Assembly (NCBI GenBank): GCA_003162425.1
Contig: PMOK01000064.1
Coordinates: 1-64,000, forward strand
Direction: 5' to 3'
Source of the DNA: Bryobacterales bacterium
Lineage (GTDB): Bacteria > Acidobacteriota > Terriglobia > Bryobacterales > Bryobacteraceae
DNA: 64,000 bases
This document shows, piece by piece, positions 32,487 to 61,758 of this stretch (the first letter of the stretch is position 1; every line of letters starts with the position of its first letter). Made by a program: the position numbers and the translations under genes. The notes beneath the pieces were generated by a model. The model ran no database searches, was not told where the DNA came from, and saw only the letters and a list, made by a program, of their open reading frames with translations.

Positions 32487-34340
32487 TTACTTACTGCTTT
32501 TCTGCAGGTTCTCAATCGATGCTTTGAGCAAGCCCACAGTGTAGGCTACGTTGTGAACTCCCAAGCTGCCATCGCGCTGTACAAAGCGGTAATTGTAAGC
32601 CGCTTCCAGTTGTGGCTGGGTCCAGGTGGCATCGATGGTGATATCGGTTTTTGCCTGTCCCACAGGAGGCAGCAACAGAGCTAGATTATTGAGCAAGTGC
32701 TGCACTTCGGTTTGCACGCCGTCAATGACGCCGTCGCCATCATAGTCGAGCAAGGGGAAGTTGAAGGTAGTGATGTCGGAGCCGTGGCAGGTCTGGCAAG
32801 CGCCCACCATTTGTTCGGCGGGAATCGTGCTGGTGCCGGGGAAGCTCATCTTGAAAGTGTGGCCGCCCACTTGTCCCAGTGCTGGGTCGGTGGAGGCGGG
32901 CGTCTGCGTGTGGCAAGCGACACAAGTGTCCGCCACTACTTCGCGGTGCGCGGAGCTGGGAATGTCCTGGCCATACGTGAAGCCATTCGTCCCCATCAAC
33001 ATGTCGGCTTGTGGGCCTTCATGCGGGCCGAAATAGGTGCTTCCGGCAGTTTTCGGTACATAAGTTGCGGCGTCGACGCGAGCTTGGTGACAGTTCATGC
33101 AGAGCGTCCCGGCGCCTGCAGCCTTGCTGGTCACTTTCGTTCCATTGGCTAGCGTGACGGTTGCCAGCGTCCGGACCAGGTGCAGGTTGGTGCTGGGGTT
33201 GGTTTCGCCGTGCGGTTCATGACAAGTCTGGCAGCCAATCGCGTCATAGGACAGATCAGCGGGCCCAACTCCTTTTATCCTGTCAACGAAGCCGTTGTTG
33301 GTGTGGCAACCGACGCAGGCAGCGTTGCCGGCAGGATCGGTGGTGGTGATGGCATGCGCGGAGTTCCCCCATTCCATACTCTTGATGTGGAATGGAGCTT
33401 CGGCGTGGCATTGGACACAAGTGCCGGCCGTGTAAGTGGTCGAGATCAGCCGCGGATCGCCGCCGGTGACCACGTGATTCGAGCCGGGTCCATGGCAGTT
33501 CTCGCACTGGATGTTCGAGACGTTCTGCAGCGCTTTGGGCATAGCTGCAAAGTTACCGGCTACGAGGTCGGTGGGAGCTACCCATCCCGACTGCACCATG
33601 ACTGTATTGAATCCGCCGTTGGGATCGGCCGCACCCGTGTCAAAGCCGACCGTGTGGCAGCCCCAGCACTCGCTGGTATACGGATACGGTTTGCCGTTCA
33701 CAATGGCGCCCTGGCCGTTAATGCTATTCGTAAAGATCTGCGAGTGCGCGGTCTTCGACCAAGCGTTCACCATCGAAAATGGGGTCCCCGCTGCTCCGTT
33801 AGCGTGGCACTGCGAGCAGGCCGAAATCCCCACGTAGGTACTGCCAGTGATCATCATCGACACTGTGGCCACGCCGGAGCCGGACGTGGTAATTGTGGCA
33901 TTGATGTTGTAAATTCCTGAGACATCCGGGCGGAATAGCTTCCGGGCGGCCACCTGATAGATCAAGCGGTCAGACGGTAAGTAGACGGGCACGTTCGACC
34001 CGAGCGGGCTGTCCTCCAGCACCGCTTTCGAGCCGGAGGGCTGGCTGGCTATCGTCCACTTGACACCGGCGATTTGCGATGCAGGAACAGAGATGTCTAC
34101 GTCAGCCTCCAGGTACGCCGCTTGGCCGAGGCCGACGGTGTTCAGACCACCGCTCCGCTCGACGGTCGCGGGCAGCTTCAAGCCATTGATGTCGTCATTA
34201 GTAACTGGCCGCGAAATAAGCTGAGCCGCCAATGTGGTTTGAGCGTTTACGATTGGGGCGCACACAGCAATCATCAGCACAACGAGCGAGATCGCGATTG
34301 TGTGAGCCAAGGGAAACTTCATTTTAGAAAATAACAGCAT
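32487..34340 (-). CDS. Exported nonaheme c-type cytochrome
   Basis: 617 residues. The ATG at 34340 was chosen for its AAGGAG site 8 bases upstream; the frame is open to 34424. After a signal peptide (ending VNAQT) comes a beta-rich domain of about 150 residues without haem. Nine CxxCH motifs follow: CSQCH, CWGCH, CENCH, CVQCH, CVGCH, CQTCH, CMNCH, CVACH, CQTCH. CHGPG and CHEPHG blocks resemble cytochrome c554/NrfB-like folds. It lies 4.6 kb downstream of the Mtr-like genes on the same strand and may pass electrons to or from them. Confidence 0.88.
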   Translation of the reverse strand: MLLFSKMKFPLAHTIAISLVVLMIAVCAPIVNAQTTLAAQLISRPVTNDDINGLKLPATVERSGGLNTVGLGQAAYLEADVDISVPASQIAGVKWTIASQPSGSKAVLEDSPLGSNVPVYLPSDRLIYQVAARKLFRPDVSGIYNINATITTSGSGVATVSMMITGSTYVGISACSQCHANGAAGTPFSMVNAWSKTAHSQIFTNSINGQGAIVNGKPYPYTSECWGCHTVGFDTGAADPNGGFNTVMVQSGWVAPTDLVAGNFAAMPKALQNVSNIQCENCHGPGSNHVVTGGDPRLISTTYTAGTCVQCHAEAPFHIKSMEWGNSAHAITTTDPAGNAACVGCHTNNGFVDRIKGVGPADLSYDAIGCQTCHEPHGETNPSTNLHLVRTLATVTLANGTKVTSKAAGAGTLCMNCHQARVDAATYVPKTAGSTYFGPHEGPQADMLMGTNGFTYGQDIPSSAHREVVADTCVACHTQTPASTDPALGQVGGHTFKMSFPGTSTIPAEQMVGACQTCHGSDITTFNFPLLDYDGDGVIDGVQTEVQHLLNNLALLLPPVGQAKTDITIDATWTQPQLEAAYNYRFVQRDGSLGVHNVAYTVGLLKASIENLQKSSK

Positions 34341-34600
34341 TGATAAAACTCCTTCCCCGAAAAGGGCATTTCTCAGTGGCCAAAGGCACGTACCATGCCA
34401 GCCGGGTAAGAGCTGCTGTTTCATAGATATCGCTCGGAGAACTGGGGCTTGAGCCGCACCCGAACTGCTTGGGGGATTGGGTCTAAAGCCTCACCCACCG
34501 ACAGAGCGTGTATGGGACAATGGCGGGAACTATAACAGGTCTACAATCTTCGGTTTGCCGGGAAGGTAGTGGATTCACCTTAGGCCATCGCCGGCCCTTC

Positions 34601-35946: not shown

Positions 35947-36975
35947 TCAATCACTGACCTTGCCCGCGAAGTGCTGGTAGACGAATACTGAGTAAACAGC
36001 CGCTAGGAGCATGCCCGGGATCCACCATGCCAGTCCAATGTAAAGCCCGTAGGGCGCTGCCGCTGCGTTTGAAACTGTCAGGCCAGCCTCCGGCTCAAGG
36101 TTTGATGGCAGCACGTAGGGAAATAGTCCAAAAGTCGCGCTGGTGAGCATCCCCACCAGGTAGAGGCAGGAGGACAAGAAAGTTCCCAGGTCGCGCCGGC
36201 GCACGCTGAACACATACATCCCAACCAAGCCCGCCACCACCAGCACTGGGAATACGTAACCCCAGGGCCGCACTTCAAACTCGGTGTTGAGATTCGGCTG
36301 CAGACGGAAACTGAAAAAGGTAATGGCCGCGGTGAACGCAACCACCGCCCACCAGATCCTGTCTCCGAACTGTCGCGCTCTACGCTGCAAATCGCCGCTG
36401 GTCTTCAGGACCACCCAGCAGCAACCGTGAATCGCCAGCGCGACGAAGGAAGCCCCGCCAACCAGCAGCGTGTACCAATCGACAATTCCCGCATCTCGCC
36501 CTGGCTGAAGATTAGTCCATAAGGGAAGAAAGAAAAATCCGTTGCCATCCAAAGGGACGCCGCGGACAACGTTGCCCAGCGCCGCTCCGTAAAGCAGCGC
36601 CAACAATGCGCTCGATCCGCCGAACACCAAATCCCAGAACGGCTTCCAGATTGGGCTTTCGATGTGGCCGCGCAGCTCAATGGAAATGCCTCTGAGAATC
36701 AGCAGCCACAACACCATCATCAGCGCCAGATAGAATCCGCTGAATGCCGCTGCATACAGCGCTGGAAACGCGAAGTACAGAGTGCCGCCTGCGGCCAGCA
36801 ACCACACCTCATTGCCGTCCCATACAGGCCCGATGGATCGCAACACCTGCTGGCGTTCCTGTTCGGTTCGCGCGACAAAGAGATGGATGATGCCTGCGCC
36901 GAGATCGAAGCCATCCAGCACCACATAGCCGGCGATCATGATCGCCACCAGGCAGAACCACACAGTTCCGATCAT
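35947..36975 (-). CDS. cydB: Cytochrome bd ubiquinol oxidase subunit II
   Basis: 342 residues, about eight to nine membrane spans. The N-terminus WFCLVAIMIAGYVVLDGFDLGAG is the CydB hallmark, and GNEVWLLAAGGTLYFAFP follows. With CydA it forms a quinol oxidase that reduces oxygen to water with high affinity. It overlaps cydA by 4 bp. No CydX-like small frame was seen downstream. Its last 53 bases are duplicated at 34601-34653. Confidence 0.95.
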   Translation of the reverse strand: MIGTVWFCLVAIMIAGYVVLDGFDLGAGIIHLFVARTEQERQQVLRSIGPVWDGNEVWLLAAGGTLYFAFPALYAAAFSGFYLALMMVLWLLILRGISIELRGHIESPIWKPFWDLVFGGSSALLALLYGAALGNVVRGVPLDGNGFFFLPLWTNLQPGRDAGIVDWYTLLVGGASFVALAIHGCCWVVLKTSGDLQRRARQFGDRIWWAVVAFTAAITFFSFRLQPNLNTEFEVRPWGYVFPVLVVAGLVGMYVFSVRRRDLGTFLSSCLYLVGMLTSATFGLFPYVLPSNLEPEAGLTVSNAAAAPYGLYIGLAWWIPGMLLAAVYSVFVYQHFAGKVSD

Positions 36976-38321
36976 TGGACGCCTCCTGCAGCGGGAATCG
37001 CCTCGATATCCGGCCCATGCTCGATTTCACGGTGAACCAGAAACAGGAACAGTATTCCAAGAATCAAGTAGAGCCCCATGAACCCGATCAGCGTGAACAG
37101 TCCATTACCCGCGGAAACTCGCGACGAAACACCTTCGGAGGTGCGCATCAAACCGTAGATCAACCACGGTTGCCGGCCCAGTTCCGCCGTCATCCAGCCG
37201 GCCGTGGTCGCGATGTAGGGAAACGGGAGGGCAAGCATCAACGCCCACAGCAGCGCCCGGTTGTTAAACAGATGAGCACGCCATAATGACCACACACAGA
37301 CGAGCATTATCAAAATCAGCAGTGTTCCAATTCCGAGCATGATGTGATAGCTGAAATAAAGCAGCGGGATGTTGTCCGGCCACTGATCGCGAGGGAAATC
37401 CTTCAGCCCTTTCACCTCCGCCTTCCAACGGCGGTAGGTCAGAAAGCTTAACATCTTGGGAATAACAATCGGATTGTCCAGAGCGAGCTTGTCGGTGTCG
37501 GGTTGGCCGATGAGCACGAGCGGCGCTCCTTCACTGGTGTCGAACAGCCCTTCCATTGCAGCCAGCGTCACTGGTTGATTCTGAGCGACCATCTTTCCTT
37601 GACCATCGCCCGTGGGGAATAGCATTGCAATGGTCGCTAGCGTGCCGGTGATCACACCTGTCCGGACGAAGATGCGTCCATGCTCGACGCACTTCGCGAC
37701 CAGCAAATAATAGGCGCCGATAGACGCCATAACGACACTCGCTGTCACCACGGCGCCGATCATGTTGTGCAGGTACTGCCAGAATACCCATGGATTCAGA
37801 ATCAGCTCCCAGAAGCTTGTCAACAGTACTTGATCGTTGGGGCCAATCTTGTAGGCGGTTGGATGTTGCATCCACGCATCGGTGGCGATGATAAAGAACC
37901 CCGAGAGCCATGCGCCCAGGCAAACCAATACCGCAGAGAGCCAGTGCAGCCGAGGGCCCAACCGCTTCTCGCCAAACACGAACAGTCCAAGAAAGGTCGA
38001 CTCCAGAAAGAAGGAATAGACTCCCTCCATTGCCAGCGTCTGTCCGATTACGCCACCGGCCGCCTTCGAGAAGCGCGCCCAACTGGTGCCGAACTGGAAT
38101 TCCATCGGAATGCCTGTTACAACGCCCATGGCGAAGTTGATGGCGAAGATCTTCACCCAGAAACGCGCGGCCTGATTGTAATGCTCGTCACCGGTTCTGA
38201 GCGCGACTGTCTTCAAAATAACGATCAACAACGCCAGCCCCATCGTAAGTTGTGGGAACAAGTAGTGAAACGTAATAGTGAAGGCAAAGTGTAGACGGTG
38301 TACCGCCAGCGCAGAATCCAT
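36972..38321 (-). CDS. cydA: Cytochrome bd ubiquinol oxidase subunit I
   Basis: 449 residues. The ATG at 38321 was chosen because MDSALAVHRLHFAFTITFH is the family N-terminus (axial His in RLHFAFT); a TTG at 38351 is less likely. The segment MTAELGRQPWLIYGLMRTSEGVS is the conserved GRQPW block. The loop between spans 6 and 7 is short, as in the CIO/short-Q-loop group. It is the first gene of the cydAB operon and divergent from the OsmC-like gene. Confidence 0.95.
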   Translation of the reverse strand: MDSALAVHRLHFAFTITFHYLFPQLTMGLALLIVILKTVALRTGDEHYNQAARFWVKIFAINFAMGVVTGIPMEFQFGTSWARFSKAAGGVIGQTLAMEGVYSFFLESTFLGLFVFGEKRLGPRLHWLSAVLVCLGAWLSGFFIIATDAWMQHPTAYKIGPNDQVLLTSFWELILNPWVFWQYLHNMIGAVVTASVVMASIGAYYLLVAKCVEHGRIFVRTGVITGTLATIAMLFPTGDGQGKMVAQNQPVTLAAMEGLFDTSEGAPLVLIGQPDTDKLALDNPIVIPKMLSFLTYRRWKAEVKGLKDFPRDQWPDNIPLLYFSYHIMLGIGTLLILIMLVCVWSLWRAHLFNNRALLWALMLALPFPYIATTAGWMTAELGRQPWLIYGLMRTSEGVSSRVSAGNGLFTLIGFMGLYLILGILFLFLVHREIEHGPDIEAIPAAGGVQ

Positions 38322-38492
38322 GTCTCCTACCCATAGCAGGATTAGTACCAAACCGGGGAGCGGGGCAAGGTCCGCGCCCCAGGGTGAGGCATAATCCGCT
38401 ATCCGTAACTGAGCATACAGAAAAGTCCAATGCCTTCTGGAGCGTGGGACTGGCTGGACGAATGCTGCTGTACCAGAGGAGGATTGTCATTC

Positions 38493-38968: not shown

Positions 38969-41002
38969 TTACCTGGTGAACCGCAGGCTGGTCATCAACT
39001 GATTGCTGCGGAAGTCCTCGTACGCGTAGAACGCCTCGGACATCGAATACCAGCGCCACTCCGTGTTCCATCGTATGTGCTTGTTCAATGGGAGCGAAAA
39101 ACGCGCGAGGGGTTGGTAATACTGCGTGGGACGACTGCCGGAAGAAGTGAACAACGATCCGCCGAAAGTGAACCACCGCACGGTGACTACCGCAGTCAAT
39201 GCGTGGGCGTTCTCTTTGTAGATGGAGGGCGTCGGCGTTAGAGTCTCCGGAACCAAGTACAGAATGTTTGAGCTGATAGCGGACCGCGAGTAATCCAGCA
39301 GCAGGTTGGCCCACTTGCCGCCTTTGGGCGTCCAGAACAGCGACGCCGACTCCACCTTGCTCGCGAAATCCAGCTTCACGGTGGGGTCAGGATTGTTGTT
39401 GTTCAGGAGGCTGAAGTCGCCGGCGAGGTGTAGAGAAGTGATCACATCGTAGCTGGCGCGGATATGGGCCTTCTGGTACTGCTGTAATCCAGTGCGGAAG
39501 AAAGTCTGCCCCGAGCTGGATCCCTCCGCGTCAGCAACTACTCTAAATTTCTGGCCCAGACGATAATTGACTCCGGCGATTCCAATGTTCTGCCGCACAC
39601 TGCCGGTCTCCAACATCAAACCGGACAAAGCCGGAGCGCCAAGATCCGTATTGCCCCACACGTACCGGTAGCCGCCGCGAAGAATGAGGTGCGAAGTCAC
39701 ATCGTAGAAGGCATCAATCTCTTCCTCGCTGTAGTTCAAGTTCAGGCGATCGGTAGCTAATTGCTGATCCGTCAGCGGCGCGGTTCCAACCAGCAGCAGA
39801 TTCTCCGCCAGCAGAGCGTTCGAAGAATTGTGATAACGGTCTGTGTTCCAGAACTCGACGATTCGCAGGCGCTTCCAAGGCCGGAGTTCAACCGTCACGT
39901 TTCCGAAACTATGCGGCATATTCGCGTAGCCGGTCAGAACATCTTGGCCGCCGCTGTAAAACTGGAAAAGATCGTTCAGGAAGAAATTTCCAGCGGAGGT
40001 TTGCACGTAGTTGACATCCGTGTGCGGACGCTCGTAGACGAATTGGCCAGTGATGGTCATCCAGGAAAACGGATTTGCCGCGCCCAGCACCTTGGTATAA
40101 ACCGAATTGCTGCGGACGCGATACTGCTCCTGTAGTTGATTCAATACGAGCGGCTGTCCATTGAACAGGCCGGGGACGTTCCCCGCATTGGGCTCATTGT
40201 TGGAAGCGCCCTGATCGTCTTTGAACGTAGTGCCGCCCTGTTCGATGGTGAGGTGATAGCGCCCCATTTCCATGCGCACTCCGGCGCGGTAATCGTTGGT
40301 CTGGTCGGAGTATAGACTGGCCACCGCATAGTTGTTCTGATCGGTAAAGAACTCCGTGATCCCGCTTCCGAATTGCGTGTTCCTTGCAAAGGCCACGTAA
40401 GGAGTGATCCACTTGCCGGGCAACAAGTCCAGTTGGACATTCAAGGTCCGGATGGCGGTGTCGTAGGCGTTTTGGTTGAGCTGTACGCCCTGGCTGAGCG
40501 TCGGATCGGCGTAGGAAGGCAAGAAATTGAAATAGGCAATATTGCGATAGTCCGCGAGGAGGCGATAAATTTTGTTCTTTTGTATGTCGACGCGGAGCGT
40601 GTTATAGGGATCGCCTCCCCAGGAGGTGGCGTGCACGTCGGCGCGGTCGAACAGAATTTTGGACGGATTGAGGATAGTGAAATCCGCATCCAGCAACTTA
40701 GGACCTTGGCCGAGATTCACTACGCTGCGATAGGCGTCGAAATTTCCGTCGATACCACCCGGAATCCAACGATACCCGACCTCAAAGCTACCTTGTAGCC
40801 AGTTGTCGGTGGATGTTTGGGGAGGCGCCTCAGCCGGCTGAGCCGCTGGTTGAGCAGCCAGTTGAGCGGCTGGCGGCGTGGCCGTTTGCGTGGCTGGTGG
40901 AGGAGCCGCCTGATCGGCGGGCTTACCTGGTGCCGGAGCCGGCGCGGCTGGCTCTTGCGCAGCCAGTGGAACAAGCAATAACAATGTCGCTAGCAGTCTC
41001 AT
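38969..41002 (-). CDS. Outer-membrane beta-barrel of MtrB/PioB type
   Basis: 677 residues with a signal peptide (about 1-15) followed by an Ala/Pro/Gln-rich linker to about residue 60. The rest alternates aromatic and polar residues as in a large beta-barrel. No Cys is present, so the CxxC of Shewanella MtrB is missing. In the MtrB/PioB family the barrel holds a decaheme cytochrome in the outer membrane. The assignment rests on length, barrel pattern and context: the gene overlaps an MtrA-like gene by 4 bp (ATGA) in an operon with an OmcA/MtrC-like cytochrome. Confidence 0.75.
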   Translation of the reverse strand: MRLLATLLLLVPLAAQEPAAPAPAPGKPADQAAPPPATQTATPPAAQLAAQPAAQPAEAPPQTSTDNWLQGSFEVGYRWIPGGIDGNFDAYRSVVNLGQGPKLLDADFTILNPSKILFDRADVHATSWGGDPYNTLRVDIQKNKIYRLLADYRNIAYFNFLPSYADPTLSQGVQLNQNAYDTAIRTLNVQLDLLPGKWITPYVAFARNTQFGSGITEFFTDQNNYAVASLYSDQTNDYRAGVRMEMGRYHLTIEQGGTTFKDDQGASNNEPNAGNVPGLFNGQPLVLNQLQEQYRVRSNSVYTKVLGAANPFSWMTITGQFVYERPHTDVNYVQTSAGNFFLNDLFQFYSGGQDVLTGYANMPHSFGNVTVELRPWKRLRIVEFWNTDRYHNSSNALLAENLLLVGTAPLTDQQLATDRLNLNYSEEEIDAFYDVTSHLILRGGYRYVWGNTDLGAPALSGLMLETGSVRQNIGIAGVNYRLGQKFRVVADAEGSSSGQTFFRTGLQQYQKAHIRASYDVITSLHLAGDFSLLNNNNPDPTVKLDFASKVESASLFWTPKGGKWANLLLDYSRSAISSNILYLVPETLTPTPSIYKENAHALTAVVTVRWFTFGGSLFTSSGSRPTQYYQPLARFSLPLNKHIRWNTEWRWYSMSEAFYAYEDFRSNQLMTSLRFTR

Positions 41003-41925
41003 CGCAACAGCTCTCTATCCACGTACGATCCGTGAACTTTCACGTGACAGACAGTGCAGTTTTGAAACCGCGAAGTTCTGAGGTCGTGAAACGCCGGCGG
41101 AACTCCGCCAATTTTGGCGTTCTGCGCGGAGGGCATGGAAACGTTGGAGTGGCACTCCAGACATACCAGGCTCTGCTCGTGACGCACCAGCATTCTTGGA
41201 TTCGCGGATCCGTGCGGCTCATGACAGGCCACGCAGCCCTCCAGCCGCATAGGCGCATGCTCGAAAACAAACGGGCCGCGTTTATCGCTGTGGCACTGCA
41301 GGCATCCTGGTTCATTGCCGAAAGAAGTGCGCATGGTGTCCGCGCTAAAAGTCGCGTGAGGATTGTGGCAATCCATGCAGGACATTGCTCCTTCGGGTAG
41401 CCGATGTTTGTAAGGCCGGTTGAAGGCGGCCCATTCCGATATATGGCAGGTGGAGCAGCGCGCGTTGATCTCGGATTTCTTGTGTTCCACCAGTTTGGCG
41501 CCCGCTGCTCCATGGACGAAATGACAGGTAGTGCAGCCCACTTGATCCTTGGCGTGCCCACTTGCTATGCGGCCACCCGGAGTGCGTTGGTTCAAGTGGC
41601 AGGTAAGACAGGTGTGATCGGTTTCGACGGGCGTCAGTTTAGCTGGGTTCCGGATATCGTCGGCTGAGGCGGACTCGGCGTGTTTGGCGCCAGGCCCGTG
41701 GCACGATTCACAGCTTTTCTTCTCCCAGCCCTTGCGGGCGCCCGTTTCGATTGCAAAATGAGGAGTTTTCTGTAGGTTGTTATAGATTTCTTCGTGGCAG
41801 GTTTTGCAAGTCTCCGAGCCGACGTAGCCCGGCGACTCGGCAGCGGCTACGGGTATCGTGAGGCACAAGGCCAGCACGATACCCGCAACTACGCTGCAAA
41901 CTGCCTGGAGGCAACTATTGCGCAT
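40999..41925 (-). CDS. Periplasmic decaheme cytochrome, MtrA/DmsE/PioA-like
   Basis: 308 residues. The ATG at 41925 was chosen since it starts a normal signal peptide (ending PVAAAES) and overlaps the upstream gene by 11 bp. Ten CxxCH motifs: CKTCH, CESCH, CLTCH, CTTCH, CSTCH, CMDCH, CLQCH, CVACH, CLECH, CTVCH. Both size and haem count match MtrA and DmsE. It would sit inside the barrel and carry electrons across the outer membrane. An inactive copy of its first 94 codons lies at 44239-44520. Confidence 0.9.
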   Translation of the reverse strand: MRNSCLQAVCSVVAGIVLALCLTIPVAAAESPGYVGSETCKTCHEEIYNNLQKTPHFAIETGARKGWEKKSCESCHGPGAKHAESASADDIRNPAKLTPVETDHTCLTCHLNQRTPGGRIASGHAKDQVGCTTCHFVHGAAGAKLVEHKKSEINARCSTCHISEWAAFNRPYKHRLPEGAMSCMDCHNPHATFSADTMRTSFGNEPGCLQCHSDKRGPFVFEHAPMRLEGCVACHEPHGSANPRMLVRHEQSLVCLECHSNVSMPSAQNAKIGGVPPAFHDLRTSRFQNCTVCHVKVHGSYVDRELLR

Positions 41926-44032
41926 GCACCTTGTCGACATCGTATGCGGCTCCAGTGGCATGGCATGTGGCACAGCTCTCTCCCAACGAATCCGTATTCG
42001 CCAGGAAGTGGGCCGCCTCGCCCTTCGAAACGTGGCATCCGCTGCAAGCCGAGGCCGTTGCCTGCACCGGATTGATCCAGCCTTGGGGATCGACCACCTG
42101 ATTCAGCCCGATCGGCAGCTTCGCCTCGCTGCTCGCGGTGTGGCACATCGCGCAGTTTTGCAGATAAGCGGCGTCTCCCGTCGGACCCATGGCTGGGTAG
42201 AGCACACCGGAAAAATCGTGCAAACTCCCGCCAAAACCTGCGATGACGAAGGGCTTGCCGCCAGCGGGCACAACATTCACGCCGTCGTGAATGCGGTGAA
42301 TCATGACCGCCATATTGATGGTTTGCGGCGTGTCCCCGGCTTTACGCTGCGAGAAGTCGGTATCGGACGGATTGTGGCACATCACGCAGTATTCAGGTTC
42401 GTTTCGCCGATTTCCGTGCAGCGTAAGATGCACGTGGCATTGATTGCAGTTGGTTTCGGCCACTACGGTCCGGCGGGGCTGCACCGGTGAGCCGTCCACG
42501 GAGAAGTAGAAGACCTGATTAGGAGTTCCGCTTTCCACTTGCTGGGCCGAGTTGGTGCCCGTCAGAATGTTCTCCAGCCGTTCGGATTCTACTCCGATGG
42601 CATATGATCCGGTGGCCTTGGCCGGAATCGCGTGCTGGAAGGTGTAGGTGCAGTTGCCGCTCGAATCACACTTTCCCTGGGTGCCATCCTCGCCCACATA
42701 GCCGGGCGTGGTGACATCGCTGCCGAAACTGGTGTAACCGTAATCGGTTGTCGGACCGGCCATGGTGAACTGCATGTCCTCCAGCGTGGGGTCGTTTAGG
42801 GCGATCGGATTGCCCTTCATGTCCTTTACTGTAAAGTCGACCACGGGCTTCTCTCCGGCCAGATGGTTGGTCACGCCCGTGATGGTTACCTTGATGCTCG
42901 TTATGAGCGTATCCGGGTTCTGCGGATATGAGGCTGCCGTGTCGCTGGCCACCACATGCGCTCCCTTGATGGAGGCGTCGAATGGCAGCTCCCCTTGAGG
43001 AATGTGGCAGTTGTGGCATTGAGTGTCGTCCGCCTGGAATCCGCCAGGATGATTCGCGCCAGTAGCGAAGTTAACATCGTCATGGCAGGCCCCGCAGGCA
43101 GCCCTGCTCGGCGTAATCAAATAAGCAGTGGCCTGCGCCGCGCCGGTAGTCTGGCTGTGGCAAACTTCGCAACGGCGGGGATCGGCGGGATCGACGATCG
43201 TCGAGAAGTCTGTCCCATTCACGATAAGCGGTTTTCCAGCAACCACGGTGGGCAACTGGCTTCCCATATGCATTTCGTGGATCATGACCTTCAAATCGAG
43301 GGAGCCACCCGTGGTGGTATCCACATTTTGCTGCGTGTGGCACAGCACGCACATTTCGATGCCGCGGCGCCTTCCGCCGTGCCACGCCAACTGATCGTGA
43401 CAGGTATTGCAGCTCGCTGTCTTTATGATGTCGTGTACCTTGGTTACCTTCGCGCCATTGGGAACGAAGTTGAACACAGCGCTCGCGTAGCTGGTTCCCA
43501 AATCGAAGTCCGTCAGTACTCGTGATGCGTAGATGCCAATGGTGTGCGTGGCGGTGGTGTCGAACCCGGTGGGCGCCTTAGTGTGGAAAACGTACTGATA
43601 TTGCCCCGGCCCAGTAGCTGTTACGACACCGCCAGTGTCGCCACCCGGTTGATTCGTCGACGCAACGGCCGGCCCGGAATTCGCGCGTGTTGTATAGGCC
43701 GTGTACTCTTCCTGATTGGCCGGCAACACCGCCGCTACGTAGCCTAAGCTGATCGTTCCCGGAGTCGTAACGCCGGCCGCATCCAAAGGCAGCCCCACGG
43801 GATCCGTGAGAGTGTAGGTCACGGTTATGGTGCCGTCGCTCGCGATTTTCGCCGAGTTGATGGTAATCACCAGGCCCGGCCGTACGAAATCGATTACGCT
43901 CTGCGCTGCGTAGAACGCCTTCTGATGCTTGTTATAAGGGGATGTACTCCCGCTCTGCAATCCAATTGCACCTATCAACAAGGCGAAGGCGAGAAAGACT
44001 CCGGTCAGCCGGCCCGAAGTAATAAAACTCAT
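41915..44032 (-). CDS. OmcA/MtrC-family decaheme cytochrome, copy 1
   Basis: 705 residues, AAGGAG site 8 bases before the ATG. Beta-rich domains of 100-150 residues lie between two groups of five haem motifs: CNTCH, CVLCH, CEVCH, CGACH, CHNCH, then CNQCH, CVMCH, CAMCH, CSGCH, CATCH. This split-barrel/pentahaem-twice layout is that of MtrC and OmcA. The N-terminus is hydrophobic (FLAFALLIGAIGLQSG) but has no lipobox Cys, unlike Shewanella MtrC. Likely exposed on the cell surface as the terminal reductase or electron acceptor. Confidence 0.9.
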   Translation of the reverse strand: MSFITSGRLTGVFLAFALLIGAIGLQSGSTSPYNKHQKAFYAAQSVIDFVRPGLVITINSAKIASDGTITVTYTLTDPVGLPLDAAGVTTPGTISLGYVAAVLPANQEEYTAYTTRANSGPAVASTNQPGGDTGGVVTATGPGQYQYVFHTKAPTGFDTTATHTIGIYASRVLTDFDLGTSYASAVFNFVPNGAKVTKVHDIIKTASCNTCHDQLAWHGGRRRGIEMCVLCHTQQNVDTTTGGSLDLKVMIHEMHMGSQLPTVVAGKPLIVNGTDFSTIVDPADPRRCEVCHSQTTGAAQATAYLITPSRAACGACHDDVNFATGANHPGGFQADDTQCHNCHIPQGELPFDASIKGAHVVASDTAASYPQNPDTLITSIKVTITGVTNHLAGEKPVVDFTVKDMKGNPIALNDPTLEDMQFTMAGPTTDYGYTSFGSDVTTPGYVGEDGTQGKCDSSGNCTYTFQHAIPAKATGSYAIGVESERLENILTGTNSAQQVESGTPNQVFYFSVDGSPVQPRRTVVAETNCNQCHVHLTLHGNRRNEPEYCVMCHNPSDTDFSQRKAGDTPQTINMAVMIHRIHDGVNVVPAGGKPFVIAGFGGSLHDFSGVLYPAMGPTGDAAYLQNCAMCHTASSEAKLPIGLNQVVDPQGWINPVQATASACSGCHVSKGEAAHFLANTDSLGESCATCHATGAAYDVDKVHAQ

Positions 44033-44238
44033 GGTATAAACTCCTTCTCATTGCAGCCCACCCGTGCAGGCATCAGTCCAAAAGAAGTGGACATAGGGTT
44101 TCAACAGGTTACGAGCTGGGTGAAAAGGCCGTAGGCCCCCAACATTGGGGCAATAGCCTGATTTGGGTGAAATCACCCATCGGTTCTTCCTCACCCACCT
44201 AACTCTGCCCGGGAACCTCCCCTGGGAAATTGGACCAC
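44033..44238 (-). promoter_or_regulatory. Leader of omcA-like copy 1, homologous to that of copy 2
   Basis: About 200 bases that align along their length with 46673-46872 upstream of the second omcA-like gene. On the minus strand it contains GGGTGA-TT-TCACCC (a perfect hairpin), GGCTATTGCC and CCCCAATGTTGGGG before the ribosome site. It probably holds the promoter and a structured 5' untranslated region. Confidence 0.6.
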
Positions 44239-44520
44239 TGGGTTCCTTATATCGTCCGCGGATGCGGACTCGGCGTGTTTGGCTCCGGGGCCGTGGCAGG
44301 CTTCGCAGCATTTCTACTCCCAAGCCTTTTCGTGCGCCAGTTTCGATTGCGAAATGCGGAGTTTTCTGTAGATTGTTGTAGATTTCTTCGTGGAAGTTTT
44401 GCAAGTCTCCTAGCCGGCATAACCCGGAGACTCGGCAGCGGCTGCAGGTATCGTGAGGCCCAAGGCCAGCACGATACCCGCAACTACGCTGCACACTGCC
44501 TAGAGGCAGCTATTGCGCAT
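44239..44520 (-). pseudogene. Decayed 5' fragment of a second mtrA-like gene
   Basis: About 94 codons that match the start of the mtrA-like gene at 40999-41925. The same 11-bp overlap with the end of the upstream omcA-like gene is kept. The reading frame is dead: codon 7 is TAG where the intact gene has CAG, a further TAG replaces the Ser before the first haem site, and a one-base deletion destroys CKTCH. Homology stops near 44239, where the leader of the first omcA-like gene begins. Confidence 0.85.
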
Positions 44521-46672
44521 GGACCGAATCGACCGCGAACTGCGCACCTGCAGCATGGCATGTGGTGCAGCTCTCTCCCAACGAATTGGTATTCGCCAGG
44601 AAATGGGCAGCTTCGGGCTTCGAAGCGTGACATCCGCTGCAAGCCGACGAAACGGGTTGCACCGTCGGATTGATCCAGTACTGTGGATTGGTCACCAGAT
44701 TCAGGCCAATCGGCAGGTTCGCCTCGGAGCTGTTGACGTGGCACATAGAGCATATCTGGGTGTTGCCGGTGGCACCATCCCCGTACATCACAGGGTAAAG
44801 TGTACCGCTGAAATCGACAACCCTTCCGTTGTGCGAAATCATTATGTAGCTGGCGCCCTGCGCCGCCAGATTCACGCCGGTGTGAATTCGATGCACCATG
44901 AAGTTAAAATTCAACGATTGCGCAGGCTGGGCCAGAATAGCCGGGACGGTCGATTGTGCCCGAGTGGCCGAATCCGTCAGCGAAGGATTGTGGCACATGA
45001 TGCAGTATTCGGGATCATTCCGCCGCGCGCCATGCCCGTTGAGATTTACGTGGCATTGGTTGCAGTTGGCTTGCGCCACTACTGTGCGGCGGTCCACCAC
45101 CGGTGAGCCGTCCACGGAGAAGTACACCACCTGATTCTGGGTTCCGCTTTCGACTTGCTGAGCCGAGTTGGTACCCGACAGAATGTTCTCCAACCGTTCG
45201 GACTCAACAGCGATGGCATACGTTCCGGTGGCTTTGGCCGGAATCGCATGCAGGAACGTGTATGTGCAGTTGCTGCCGGAGTCGCAGGTTGCCACGGTAC
45301 CATCCTCGCTCACGATCCCCGGTGTGGTGACATCGCTGCCGAAGCTGGTGTAGCCGTAATCGGTGGTCGGACCGGCCATAGTGAAGCCGAGATCCTCCAG
45401 GTCGGACATTTTGAGTACGTTGCCTTTCGTATCTTTGATGGTGAATTTCACCACCGGCTTCTCACCGGCCAAAGTGTTCGTTACGCCCGTAATATGTATG
45501 GCATCGCCGGTTATCAGCGTATCCGGGTTCTGCGGATACGTGAGCGCCGTGTCAGCGGCCGTCACGTGCGCTCCCTGGATGGAGGCATCGAATGGCAGCT
45601 CGCCCTGGGGAACGTGACAATTGTGGCACTGCGTGTCATCCGGCTGGAATCCGCCAGGGTGGTTGGCGCCGGTGGCGAAGTTGACATCGTCATGGCAGGA
45701 CCCGCAGGCAACCCTACTCGGCGTGGTCATAAATGCCGTGGCCTGCGCCGCGCCCGTGGTTTGGCTATGGCAAACTTCGCAACGCTGGACAGTGGCGGGA
45801 TCAACTACTGTGGAAAAGTCGCTGATAAAACCCATATAACCGGCGATCTGATAAGGTACACCCTTTGTCGTCGCGGTGCCAACCACGCTGGGTAACGATG
45901 ACCCCATGTGGATCTTGTGCGCCATCACCTTGAGGTCCAGTGAATTGCCGGTGGTCGGATCGGCGTTTTGCGGTTGATGGCAAAGAACACACATCTCCAT
46001 GCCGTGGGCATAGCCGCCGTGGAACGCCAACTCGCTGTGGCAGGTGTTGCAGCTCGCGGTGCGGATCACATCGCGCGTTACGGTAACCGCCGCACCATTA
46101 GGAACGAAGTTGAAGGTGGTGCCGGCATAGCTGGTGCCCAGGTTGAATGCAGTGAGATCGCGGTTGCCATCAACGGCGACTGTAGTGGTCGCGGCTGCTT
46201 CAAATCCCGCCGGAGCCTTAGCCGTGAAAGTGTATGTATATTGCCCATTACCCAACGATGTGGGCGGCTTGCCCAACTCGAAACCCGGGCGAGTGATTGT
46301 ACCCAACGCCTTGCCGCTTGCCGACGAAGTCGTATAGGCGACATATTGGGCCTGACCCGTGGGGATGTAAGACGCGACATAGGCCAGCGAGACTGCACCC
46401 GGAGTGGTCACGCCGGCTGCATCCAGAGGCAACCCCGCGGGATCCGTCAGGGTGTACGTCACGGTTATAGTGCCGTCGCTCGCGATTTTCGCCGAGTTTA
46501 TGGTAATCACCAGTCCCGGCCGCGCGAAATCGATTACGCTCTGCGCCGCGTAAAACGCCTTCTGATGCTTGTTGTACGGGGATGTACTCCCACTCTGCAA
46601 TCCAATTGCACCTAACAACAAAGCGAAGGCGAGAAAGATTCGGGTCAGTCGGCCCGGAGAAATAAAAGTCAT
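44510..46672 (-). CDS. OmcA/MtrC-family decaheme cytochrome, copy 2
   Basis: 720 residues. The ATG at 46672 has the same AAGGAG leader as copy 1 and starts the same hydrophobic N-terminus. Ten haem motifs in two groups of five: CNTCH, CVLCH, CEVCH, CGSCH, CHNCH, then CNQCH, CIMCH, CSMCH, CSGCH, CTTCH. It aligns with copy 1 along its length, with the most differences in the beta-rich parts. It is followed by the mtrA remnant, so it depends on the barrel and mtrA of the downstream copy, if it is used at all. Confidence 0.9.
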   Translation of the reverse strand: MTFISPGRLTRIFLAFALLLGAIGLQSGSTSPYNKHQKAFYAAQSVIDFARPGLVITINSAKIASDGTITVTYTLTDPAGLPLDAAGVTTPGAVSLAYVASYIPTGQAQYVAYTTSSASGKALGTITRPGFELGKPPTSLGNGQYTYTFTAKAPAGFEAAATTTVAVDGNRDLTAFNLGTSYAGTTFNFVPNGAAVTVTRDVIRTASCNTCHSELAFHGGYAHGMEMCVLCHQPQNADPTTGNSLDLKVMAHKIHMGSSLPSVVGTATTKGVPYQIAGYMGFISDFSTVVDPATVQRCEVCHSQTTGAAQATAFMTTPSRVACGSCHDDVNFATGANHPGGFQPDDTQCHNCHVPQGELPFDASIQGAHVTAADTALTYPQNPDTLITGDAIHITGVTNTLAGEKPVVKFTIKDTKGNVLKMSDLEDLGFTMAGPTTDYGYTSFGSDVTTPGIVSEDGTVATCDSGSNCTYTFLHAIPAKATGTYAIAVESERLENILSGTNSAQQVESGTQNQVVYFSVDGSPVVDRRTVVAQANCNQCHVNLNGHGARRNDPEYCIMCHNPSLTDSATRAQSTVPAILAQPAQSLNFNFMVHRIHTGVNLAAQGASYIMISHNGRVVDFSGTLYPVMYGDGATGNTQICSMCHVNSSEANLPIGLNLVTNPQYWINPTVQPVSSACSGCHASKPEAAHFLANTNSLGESCTTCHAAGAQFAVDSVHAQ

Positions 46673-46872
46673 GGTATAACTCCTTCCCAATGCAGCCCTC
46701 CCGTGCAGTCATTAGTCCAAAGGAAGCCAACATAGGCTCAATAGGTTACGACCTGGGCGAAAAGACCATAAACCCCCACAATTGGGGCAATAGCCTAATT
46801 TGAGTGAAATCCCCCAGCGGGTTCCCCCTCACCTCATACTTTTCCCTGGGGGCTTCCCTTGGAAACTGGACC
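46673..46872 (-). promoter_or_regulatory. Leader of omcA-like copy 2 and shared divergent promoter region
   Basis: Homologous to 44033-44238. CCCCA/TGGGG pairs around ATTG, and the GGCTATTGCC word is kept. The outer hairpin of copy 1 is less well kept. The region also lies just upstream of the divergent P-type ATPase gene. Confidence 0.55.
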
Positions 46873-59161: not shown

Positions 59162-59452
59162 ATGAGAAAATTTTCCGGTTCCGAACTCAAAAAGGCGCTC
59201 GCCAGCTTGCCTGGCTGGAGCGTCGTCGATGGAAAGCTGCACAAAGAATACAAGTTCGCCGATTTCATTCACGCCTTTGGCTTCATGGCCACTTCCGCGC
59301 TTGGAATCGAGAAGATGGAGCATCATCCGGAGTGGTTCAACGTCTACAACCGCGTGACGGTGGACCTTGCCACTCACGACGCTGGAGGGATCACATCCAA
59401 AGATGTCGACTTGGCGAAGCTTCTGGATGCCACCGCGGCCAAGCTGCAATGA
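59162..59452 (+). CDS. Pterin-4a-carbinolamine dehydratase
   Basis: 96 residues, the full family size. The HHPEWFNVYNRVTVDLATHDAGG segment holds the active-site block (H-x3-W...H). The enzyme dehydrates 4a-hydroxytetrahydrobiopterin and, in bacteria, supports aromatic hydroxylases or pterin recycling. Its stop overlaps the ATG of the following gene by 4 bp. No phenylalanine hydroxylase is near. Confidence 0.9.
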   Translation: MRKFSGSELKKALASLPGWSVVDGKLHKEYKFADFIHAFGFMATSALGIEKMEHHPEWFNVYNRVTVDLATHDAGGITSKDVDLAKLLDATAAKLQ

Positions 59453-61758
59453 AGATCCTGCTGCTTTTGAGCTGCGCGGCCAGCCTATGCGCGCAGCCGG
59501 CATTTGATGAGCCCATCGAGAGCGCGATTAGAGCCGGACTCATCCCAGGCGCCGTTCTGCTAGTTGGCCACGACGGAAAAGTTGTATACCGAAAAGCTTA
59601 CGGCGAACGGGCGCTGCTGCCAAAACACGAGTCCATGACCGTGGATACCATGTTCGACGCCGCTTCATTGACCAAAGTAATCGCCACCACTCCGTCCGTC
59701 ATGAAACTTTTCGAACAGGGCAAGATCCGGCTCAATGACCCGGTCACCAAATACCTGCCGGAGTTCCAAGGCGGCCATAGCGACATCACCATTCGCAATC
59801 TGATGACGCATTTTTCAGGGCTCCGGCCGGATCTCGATCTCGAACCCCCGTGGAGCGGTTATGAGACGGGTATTCAGCGGGCATTAATTGACAAACCGGC
59901 AGGCCCTCCGGGCGTCCGATTCGTTTACAGCGACATCAATTTCATCCTAATGGGCGAGATTGTGCGTCGGTTAAGCGGCAAAACGCTCCCTGAATTCGCT
60001 CGCGAGAACGTTTTTGACCCACTTGGCATGCGCGAAACGACGTTTTTGCCCTCCACGGCGCTGCGGCCGCGCATCGCACCCACCGAACTGGATAAGACAA
60101 CGGGGCAGCCGCTTCGGGGCGTGGTTCACGACGACACCTCGCGATACATGGGGGGCGTGGCCGGTCATGCCGGATTGTTCACCACCGCGGACGACCTGGC
60201 GAAGTTCGCGCAGATGATGATCGACGGCGGCGAGAGTGATGGAACGCGGCTTTTCGCTGCATCGACTATCGAGAAATTCACCTCGCCCCAGTCGCCTGCG
60301 GATCAGCCGATCTTGCGAGGCTTGGGATGGGATATTGACTCGCCGTTTTCAAGCAATCGAGGCGATTTGTTTCCCATCGGTTCATATGGCCATACCGGAT
60401 TCACGGGCACCTCCCTCTGGATCGATCCTACTAGCCGGAGTTACGTGATTCTACTAGCGAACTCGGTGCATCCCCACCGCGGAAAATCGCTAACATCATT
60501 GCGTGCGCGAATAGCGACCATCGCCGCTGCGTCCTTCGGCATCACCGCGCCAGGAGTCACTCTGACCGGATACAACGAAACCATCGTCGGCCCCGGTTTG
60601 CATCGCGTAGTGGAGCCTAAGGCCGAGGTTTTGACCGGTTTGGACGTTCTCGCTGAGGAGAATTTCGCCCGGCTCGCAGGCTATCGGATCGGTGTTATTA
60701 CCAATCACACTGGCTTGAGCCGCGATGGAAAGCGCAATATCGATCTGATGCTGGCCGCCGGCATCAAGATCGCCGCGGTGTTTTCGCCGGAACACGGCCT
60801 GGCCGTAACCGAGGATCAAGAGAATGTCGCGGATTCCAAAGATTCAGCGACGGGCCTTCCTGTAATCAGCTTGTATGCCGGACCCACGCGCCGCCTCACT
60901 CCACAGATGTTGGAGGGAGTTGACGCGCTTGTTTTCGATATCCAGGACGTAGGCGCCCGTTTTTATACATATTCCTGCACCATGCTCTCCAGCATGGAGG
61001 AAGCGGCCAAAAAGCATTTGCCGTTTTACGTGCTGGACCGTCCCAATCCCATCACCGGAGTGCATGTAGAAGGGCCGGTGCTGGACCGCGATCTTGAATC
61101 GTTTGTCGGATGCTTCGAGATTCCGTTGCGGCACGGCATGACGCTGGGTGAACTGGCGAATATGGCCAATGGCGAGCGAAATCTCGGTCTTGACCTGCAC
61201 GTGGTGGCGGTGCGCGGCTGGGATCGCGGCGATTGGTTCGATTCCACCGGCCTGCCGTGGGTTAACCTTTCGCCCAATATGCGAAGTCTGAATGCGGCCG
61301 TTCTTTATCCTGGCGTTGCGATGCTGGAAGCATCCAAGAATTACTCCGTCGGCCGAGGCACGGATGCCCCCTTCGAGCAAGTTGGCGCGGATTGGATACA
61401 CGGCCGCGAACTGGCGGCATTTCTCAACGGCCGATATATTCCGGGTGTTCGGGTTTATCCCACACGTTTTCGACCCAGCAGTTCCAATTTCGCCGGACAG
61501 TTCATCGAAGGCGTCCGGTTCGTGGTGACGGACCGCAACGCATTTGACAGCACCCGGCTGGGCCTCGAGCTGGGATATGCCTTTGAGAAGCTCTACCCCG
61601 GCAAGATTCCTTGGGACGTGAACCGGTTCCTGATCGGAGATCACGATGTGATCGCGGCTGGAAAAAGCGCCACCGATCCGAGAACAACGGTTCAGAAAAT
61701 GCAGGACGCTCTCGCTGCCTTCGTGAAGCGGCGAGAAAAATTCCTGCTATATAGGTAG
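59449..61758 (+). CDS. Serine hydrolase (beta-lactamase family) fused to NamZ-like DUF1343
   Basis: 769 residues with a signal peptide (ending SLCAQ). Residues about 20-380 are a class C beta-lactamase/penicillin-binding-protein-like domain: SLTK nucleophile, YSDIN for the Tyr block and GHTGFTG for the KTG-like block. Residues about 395-765 are DUF1343: YRIGVITNHTGLSRDG, FSPEHGLAV and VFDIQDVGARFYTYSCTM. DUF1343 includes NamZ, an exo-N-acetylmuramidase (GH171). The fusion suggests peptidoglycan trimming or recycling in the periplasm. The ATG at 59449 overlaps the pterin dehydratase stop. Confidence 0.88.
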   Translation: MKILLLLSCAASLCAQPAFDEPIESAIRAGLIPGAVLLVGHDGKVVYRKAYGERALLPKHESMTVDTMFDAASLTKVIATTPSVMKLFEQGKIRLNDPVTKYLPEFQGGHSDITIRNLMTHFSGLRPDLDLEPPWSGYETGIQRALIDKPAGPPGVRFVYSDINFILMGEIVRRLSGKTLPEFARENVFDPLGMRETTFLPSTALRPRIAPTELDKTTGQPLRGVVHDDTSRYMGGVAGHAGLFTTADDLAKFAQMMIDGGESDGTRLFAASTIEKFTSPQSPADQPILRGLGWDIDSPFSSNRGDLFPIGSYGHTGFTGTSLWIDPTSRSYVILLANSVHPHRGKSLTSLRARIATIAAASFGITAPGVTLTGYNETIVGPGLHRVVEPKAEVLTGLDVLAEENFARLAGYRIGVITNHTGLSRDGKRNIDLMLAAGIKIAAVFSPEHGLAVTEDQENVADSKDSATGLPVISLYAGPTRRLTPQMLEGVDALVFDIQDVGARFYTYSCTMLSSMEEAAKKHLPFYVLDRPNPITGVHVEGPVLDRDLESFVGCFEIPLRHGMTLGELANMANGERNLGLDLHVVAVRGWDRGDWFDSTGLPWVNLSPNMRSLNAAVLYPGVAMLEASKNYSVGRGTDAPFEQVGADWIHGRELAAFLNGRYIPGVRVYPTRFRPSSSNFAGQFIEGVRFVVTDRNAFDSTRLGLELGYAFEKLYPGKIPWDVNRFLIGDHDVIAAGKSATDPRTTVQKMQDALAAFVKRREKFLLYR

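Follow-up and report, generated by a model that had tools for sequence, protein, structure and literature searches.

A Bryobacterales locus for an MtrCAB-kind porin-cytochrome conduit with a duplicated mtrC gene

A group of multihaem cytochrome genes next to the gene of a large beta-barrel raises the question of whether it encodes a conduit that carries electrons across the outer membrane and, if so, in which direction. We considered this question for a locus in a 64,000-nt stretch of contig PMOK01000064.1 (GCA_003162425.1) of a Bryobacterales bacterium. This whole stretch is referred to as the window, and all coordinates are window positions. An original prediction for this DNA had proposed an Mtr-type conduit in an acidobacterium with likely electron export, and our analysis supports that proposal. 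Iron-reducing bacteria use such a haem wire to hand respiratory electrons over to minerals. With a probability of roughly 0.85, the product of the locus is a porin-cytochrome conduit of the outer membrane that is of the MtrCAB kind, belongs to the Bryobacterales 'Group 5' lineage and exports electrons to extracellular acceptors. MtrCAB 'Group 5' in Bryobacterales/Acidobacteriia was described by Baker et al. 2022 from five hits (PMC8805035), and an Mtr conduit in this order is already known in kind.

The cytochromes and the barrel

The mtrC, mtrA and mtrB-like genes form one cluster of overlapping genes (38969-44032), and the cluster is conserved in the family. The copy of mtrC adjoining mtrA, denoted mtrC2, overlaps mtrA by 11 nt, and mtrA overlaps the barrel gene by 4 nt (ATGA). 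The upstream copy, mtrC1, stands apart from this set, so that the overlap of three genes originally described holds for mtrC2, mtrA and the barrel gene and not for mtrC1. Ten CxxCH motifs were counted in each mtrC and in mtrA; the earlier haem counts of 10, 10 and 10, as well as the gene boundaries given with them, were correct. The search with family models that had been suggested at the time placed both cytochrome types above the curated cut-offs. The model TIGR03507 matches mtrC1 with E 1.2e-129 and 433.7 bits (cut-off 209.3) and mtrC2 with E 1.5e-135, and TIGR03508 (DmsE/MtrA) matches mtrA with E 8.7e-72 and 241.7 bits (cut-off 192.2). The Shewanella MtrA chain 6r2q_A also matches the window mtrA (E 2.5e-35). 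There are 20 invariant histidines in 72 MtrA orthologues, ten in CxxCH motifs and ten distal, and likewise 20 in 50 MtrC sequences, as required by ten bis-histidine haems per protein. Since the model cut-offs are exceeded and the histidines are invariant in orthologues, the cytochrome assignments are not due to chance.

The domain arrangement of OmcA/MtrC cytochromes, with two beta domains and two pentahaem domains, is indicated by the above TIGR03507 scores and by the AlphaFold model of mtrC2 (predicted local distance difference test, pLDDT, 87.9). Structural matches of this model are confined to OmcA (Z 25.4), MtrC (22.8), UndA (22.2) and MtrF (20.0), the next unrelated structure having 8.1. 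Both copies have a CX5C cysteine pair in their second beta domain, located between haems 5 and 6 (Cys463/Cys469 in mtrC1, Cys455/Cys461 in mtrC2); among 65 MtrC sequences of the clade, 41 have such a pair. The CX8C pair found in domain III of Shewanella MtrC weakens flavin binding when oxygen is present and restricts peroxide (PMC9973256), and an equivalent oxygen-related function may be conceivable for the Bryobacterales pair. Neither mtrC1 nor mtrC2 has an N-terminal lipobox cysteine. Lipobox pattern matches in 6 of 60 family MtrC were judged spurious by position, and the missing lipobox is a feature of the clade.

The 677-residue barrel protein consists of a signal peptide with a Pro/Ala-rich linker (about residues 1-64) and the barrel proper (65-677). 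Its AlphaFold model (pLDDT 83.7, predicted template-modelling score 0.75) has about 28 strands, of which the first four are short and the first two are separated by a short helix; both traits have been described for MtrB (PMC7198977). The top Foldseek match is the Shewanella MtrB chain 6r2q_B (E 4.4e-15, template-modelling scores 0.65/0.67), to which 550 residues align with Z 26.2 and a root-mean-square deviation of 3.9 A. The runner-up chain is a TonB receptor (Z 16.6, 431 aligned residues). At family level, 18 of 65 barrel orthologues weakly match MtrB_PioB (PF11854) at E<=1 (best E 3.7e-9), and hhalign relates the barrel family to canonical acidobacterial MtrB with a probability of 94% and E 1e-7. 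The proposed MtrB/PioB model check therefore turned out differently at its two levels, with no match for the window barrel and weak matches among its orthologues. A reading in which the barrel is not MtrB, drawn from the PF11854 blank, was overturned by the fold comparison, the family-wide scan and hhalign. Because the fold match, the PF11854 matches of orthologues and the profile match to canonical MtrB agree, the window barrel is MtrB-like, a homologue of the 26-28-strand MtrB barrels, and hence the locus is an Mtr conduit. The barrel has no cysteine in its 677 residues, and barrels of relatives have 0-2 in the translated open reading frame. The original prediction was right that the barrel lacks CxxC and that both MtrC copies lack the lipobox cysteine; these absences, which it described for this set, are common to the whole clade.

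The tandem mtrC copies and their leaders

The two OmcA-like genes, which had been noted as distinctive, are indeed present, and they are the product of a recent tandem duplication of mtrC and the start of mtrA. The block copied in tandem starts upstream of mtrC and ends in the early part of mtrA. The region with the mtrA fragment is 82.6% identical over 517 nt to the end of mtrC2 and the start of mtrA; the remnant keeps about 250 nt of mtrA, with two TAG stops and a frameshift. The mtrC1 and mtrC2 proteins are 71% identical. The most diverged parts are domain I (mtrC2 residues 100-180, about 43-52% identity) and residues 550-640 (44-49%), whereas identity is 80-92% in the haem cores and in the first 100 residues, where the copies also agree at more synonymous sites. 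This pattern fits partial gene conversion or uneven constraint. The copies, diverged mainly in domain I and the haem 7-8 region, would probably differ in acceptor or partner.

Could the pair have arisen by faulty assembly of a metagenome bin? The genome to which the window belongs is split into 349 contigs, and contigs of a sister species (G002, about 96% identical) break inside mtrC2. Nevertheless, a single contig of that species runs through mtrC1 (orthologue 96% identical) and the shared mtrA fragment into the beginning of mtrC2, in the gene order of the window, and the 29% difference in protein sequence between the copies also argues against such an error. We consider an artefact highly improbable, and it was rejected as the source of the tandem because of the arrangement shared with the sister species. 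On the tree, the window pair lies within one starred clade of seven rows, whose inner order is not settled. Three further loci (L091, L093, L106) have tandem full-length mtrC genes, each pair being sister on the tree. Judged from these sequences, tandem mtrC duplications appear to have arisen at least four times independently in the order, the window pair being one of them. Another locus has a second OmcA/MtrC gene (L086:11621-13399), downstream of its cluster and in the opposite orientation.

The whole leader was duplicated together with mtrC. The mtrC1 leader and the mtrC2 leader (about 149 nt) are 84% identical, which exceeds the identity of parts of the mtrC coding region, and no further leader copy was found elsewhere in the same genome. 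TTGG-N9-TGCA is present in both leaders, about 30-50 nt ahead of the start codon. Upstream of mtrC in the family, TGG-N9-TGC occurs at 53 of 62 loci, compared to 4-12 loci at spacings 5-8 and 10-13, and the strict form [CT]TGG-N9-TGC[AT] at 36 of 62, compared to 1-7 at spacings 4-8 and 10-15. When upstream regions are counted as clusters without detectable mutual similarity, 34 of 40 such clusters have the element, compared to 3-8 clusters at other spacings. The motif has the sigma-54 -24/-12 geometry and fits the RpoN consensus of Geobacter, TTGGCACGGTTTTTGCT (PMC2725144). RpoN is encoded in the same genome. These observations suggest RpoN control of the conduit operon, in which a sigma-54 promoter before each mtrC would probably turn the operon on via an activator. 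Neither the duplicated leader with its sigma-54-like element nor the mtrA remnant had been noted in the original prediction. A literature search of partial coverage found no mention of sigma-54 control of acidobacterial mtr genes. Scans for sigma-70 promoters and terminators gave fewer sites than in shuffles. Since Rfam gave chance-level snoRNA matches only, the mtrC leaders contain no known riboswitch.

Table 1. Features of the conduit locus and its context in the window. Positions are window coordinates.
Feature	Position	Strand	Basis
mtrC1, upstream copy, OmcA/MtrC-family decahaem surface cytochrome, 720 aa	44510..46672	-	TIGR03507, 10 CxxCH
Decayed 5' fragment of second mtrA	~44270..44520	-	Two in-frame stops, frameshift, truncated
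mtrC2, copy adjoining mtrA, OmcA/MtrC-family decahaem surface cytochrome, 705 aa	41915..44032	-	TIGR03507, 10 CxxCH, AlphaFold
mtrA, periplasmic MtrA/DmsE-family decahaem cytochrome, 308 aa from ATG	40999..41925	-	TIGR03508, 10 CxxCH
mtrB-like outer-membrane barrel, 677 aa, cysteine-free	38969..41002	-	AlphaFold fold match, family profiles
Sigma-54 (RpoN) -24/-12-like element TTGGACTGATGCCTGCA before mtrC2	44065..44081	-	Motif statistics
Sigma-54 (RpoN) -24/-12-like element TTGGACTAATGACTGCA before mtrC1	46704..46720	-	Motif statistics
mtrC1 leader	46669..46811	-	Near-copy of mtrC2 leader 44028-44176
cydA and cydB, cytochrome bd oxidase, context genes	35947..38351	-	PF01654 E 2e-149, PF02322 E 5.5e-82

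An OsmC gene on the plus strand lies between cydAB and the conduit. Farther along the minus strand (32487-34424) is the gene of a nine-haem cytochrome of 645 aa, parts of which resemble the MtrC/MtrF pentahaem domain (PF22113 E 8e-15) and a UshA-like model; it is conserved in a sister species (L059). On the plus strand at 59332-61758, a single protein combines a beta-lactamase-like domain with a complete NamZ exo-N-acetylmuramidase (both domains).

Spread, partners and direction of electron flow

With a threshold of E < 1e-60, the window's family has orthologous barrels in 48 of its 61 sampled genomes; outside the family they are rare. Scanning GTDB genomes yielded 80 loci (about 80 species), mostly from Bryobacterales metagenome-assembled genomes of peat, permafrost and soil, and the nearest relatives have records with the labels palsa, bog and fen. 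Nearly all orthologues belong to Bryobacterales/Acidobacteriota records, among which the window MtrC nests (the Group 5 sequences of Baker et al. were not part of this tree). Canonical PF11854 MtrB is present in 71 of 297 sampled acidobacterial genomes and in none of three from the window's family. The barrel gene adjoins mtrA in 72 of 72 testable loci, and mtrC lies upstream in 54 of 61 and downstream in 3 more. A tetrahaem protein with class-I cytochrome domains is encoded directly downstream in 52 of 72 loci and a five-haem NapC-like protein at 23 of 80, the commonest order being mtrC-mtrA-mtrB-tetrahaem-(NapC-like). At the window locus, the site of the tetrahaem gene directly downstream of mtrB is occupied by OsmC/cydAB instead. 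The tetrahaem gene is missing, with the same neighbours, at L059 and L060 of the window's genus, which has lost the adjacent gene. A tetrahaem homologue is encoded elsewhere in the same genome (contig C176, 48% identity to the query). The genome also has a five-haem NapC-like protein (L159:4748-7341, contig C319), and the adjacent gene encodes an 11-haem protein whose C-terminal part includes a hydrophobic stretch; these two proteins are candidate quinol-side partners of the conduit.

Further arrangements were seen in the course of the scan. The genome of the window has a second decahaem MtrA (TIGR03508 E 1.6e-81) with an MtrB-like barrel and no mtrC (L043:2737-5699, contig C79); this barrel is 24% identical to the window barrel, and similar barrels are widespread in the order. 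Three loci (L132, L136, L138) have the order mtrA-mtrB-mtrC, and their MtrC group as a single clade. Another family of the class (L052, L053) has divergent MtrA-barrel pairs with five-haem proteins and ResB/cytochrome c assembly genes after them.

The most likely function of the window locus would be RpoN-controlled export of electrons to iron minerals, humics or other extracellular acceptors. Electrons would pass from quinol to a NapC-like cytochrome and a periplasmic four-haem cytochrome, partners that many relatives encode beside the conduit and this genome elsewhere. They would then reach the decahaem MtrA, which inside the 26-28-strand MtrB-like barrel may form a haem wire across the outer membrane, and the decahaem MtrC, which would dock outside and deliver them to Fe(III) or Mn(IV) oxides, humics or flavins. 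The tandem duplication would have supplied a second surface cytochrome. Export is suggested by the presence of MtrC, by the NapC-like and tetrahaem partners of relatives and by the Fe(III) reduction of the cultured Bryobacterales Paludibaculum fermentans, which has many multihaem cytochromes (PMC8407742). Uptake of electrons from Fe(II) or another outside donor, as by PioAB or MtoAB, has to be weighed against this, as PioA/MtoA/MtrA and PioB/MtoB/MtrB are homologous and the core does not set direction; the mtrA-barrel pair without mtrC in the same genome even has the Pio/Mto layout. The window locus, however, has the surface MtrC-type cytochromes that Pio and Mto clusters lack (PMC4245776), the quinol dehydrogenases and periplasmic tetrahaem proteins of relatives speak against uptake, and a cultured member of the Bryobacterales is reported to reduce Fe(III), not to oxidize Fe(II). 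Uptake is thus unlikely.

A conduit that serves an extracellular terminal reductase, as in DmsEF-like systems, and not solids, would agree with the DmsE model family of the window MtrA. We regard it as quite improbable, as there is no dimethyl sulfoxide-type reductase among the neighbours examined and OmcA/MtrC cytochromes hold the reductase's place in 57 of 61 testable loci, both window copies being of full length. Hardly any weight is left for a reading of the barrel as an uptake porin, such as a TonB-dependent receptor, that lies next to cytochromes unrelated to it. It could draw on the missing direct Pfam match of the 677-residue protein and on the TonB receptors next in the fold ranking. 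The outcomes that the original prediction had itself named as fatal, a non-barrel, a TonB-type receptor or a barrel too narrow for MtrA, were not seen; MtrB leads by about 10 Z units, the model has about 28 strands and not the 22 with a plug of TonB receptors, the gene adjoins mtrA in all 72 testable loci and orthologues match MtrB_PioB. Several points do weigh against a conduit for export. We found no experiment on a Bryobacterales conduit in the literature. The window barrel as a single sequence matched nothing in Pfam, NCBIfam or the chains of the Protein Data Bank (the latter also with a profile), and a PF11854 search of the whole genome gave no match, the window barrel included. The tetrahaem and NapC-like genes are missing from the neighbourhood. 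MtrC has no lipid anchor that would retain it at the surface, for which docking on the barrel would be the simplest explanation, and the best matches of the genome to GspD, the secretin of the type II secretion system and a conceivable route of MtrC to the surface, are below the cut-off.

Relation to known conduits and meaning

The window locus shares with Group 5 the bacterial order and the mtrC-mtrA-mtrB core, and its family relatives carry the 'c-cyt group 5' tetrahaem gene right after mtrB. It differs by the duplicated mtrC with an mtrA remnant and by a tetrahaem gene that is not adjacent. Group 5 was described as having neither an mtrC duplication nor a nearby inner-membrane quinone oxidoreductase (PMC8805035); given the tandem pairs and the NapC-like protein near family loci, these two statements do not hold in the larger set. 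Compared to Shewanella MtrCAB/OmcA (6r2q, PMC7198977), the three-part conduit with decahaem MtrA and MtrC is the same, as are the MtrB fold with its helix and four short strands and the MtrC fold (Z 20-25). The window barrel, however, has 13% structural sequence identity and no cysteine, its MtrC has no lipobox and has CX5C instead of CX8C between haems 5 and 6, and the locus has a sigma-54-like promoter. The Fe(II)-oxidizing PioAB/MtoAB systems have homologous MtrA- and MtrB-type parts and no surface decahaem cytochrome, and the L043 pair is closer to them in layout than the window locus. The Geobacter Pcc complex (OmbB-OmaB-OmcB) does the same job with a porin and inner and outer multihaem cytochromes, although its barrels have 18-22 predicted strands; Geobacter omcB was up-regulated in an RpoN+ strain (PMC2725144). 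Solibacter MtrA/MtrC were noted in Arctic peat in 2013 (PMC3669403). Relative to this literature, the wide distribution, the tandem copies of mtrC, the linkage to a NapC-like gene and the sigma-54 element appear to be new. The very divergent barrel, the missing lipid anchor and the sigma-54-type promoter, which are order-wide traits, have no description in the literature covered.

Soils, peat and thawing permafrost commonly harbour Bryobacterales. A 2018 survey judged that acidobacterial mtrA/mtrB homologues do not form complete operons and that soil acidobacteria including 'Ca. Solibacter' and Bryobacter, having no complete mtr/omc operons, would not reduce iron in the Shewanella style (PMC5900883), and the 2022 survey found five such acidobacterial clusters (PMC8805035). 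Since the Pfam MtrB model detects 18 of 65 barrels even at E<=1 while the barrel is present in most sampled genomes of the family, surveys using this model would undercount the capacity. For the timing of expression and for possible behaviour in oxygen, the sigma-54 element and the CX5C pair offer specific, testable starting points. At about even odds, soil Bryobacterales may as a rule carry a complete RpoN-controlled operon for extracellular respiration (NapC-like, tetrahaem, MtrA, divergent MtrB and unlipidated MtrC), largely missed by standard MtrB models, in which repeated tandem mtrC duplications would diversify the surface reductase.

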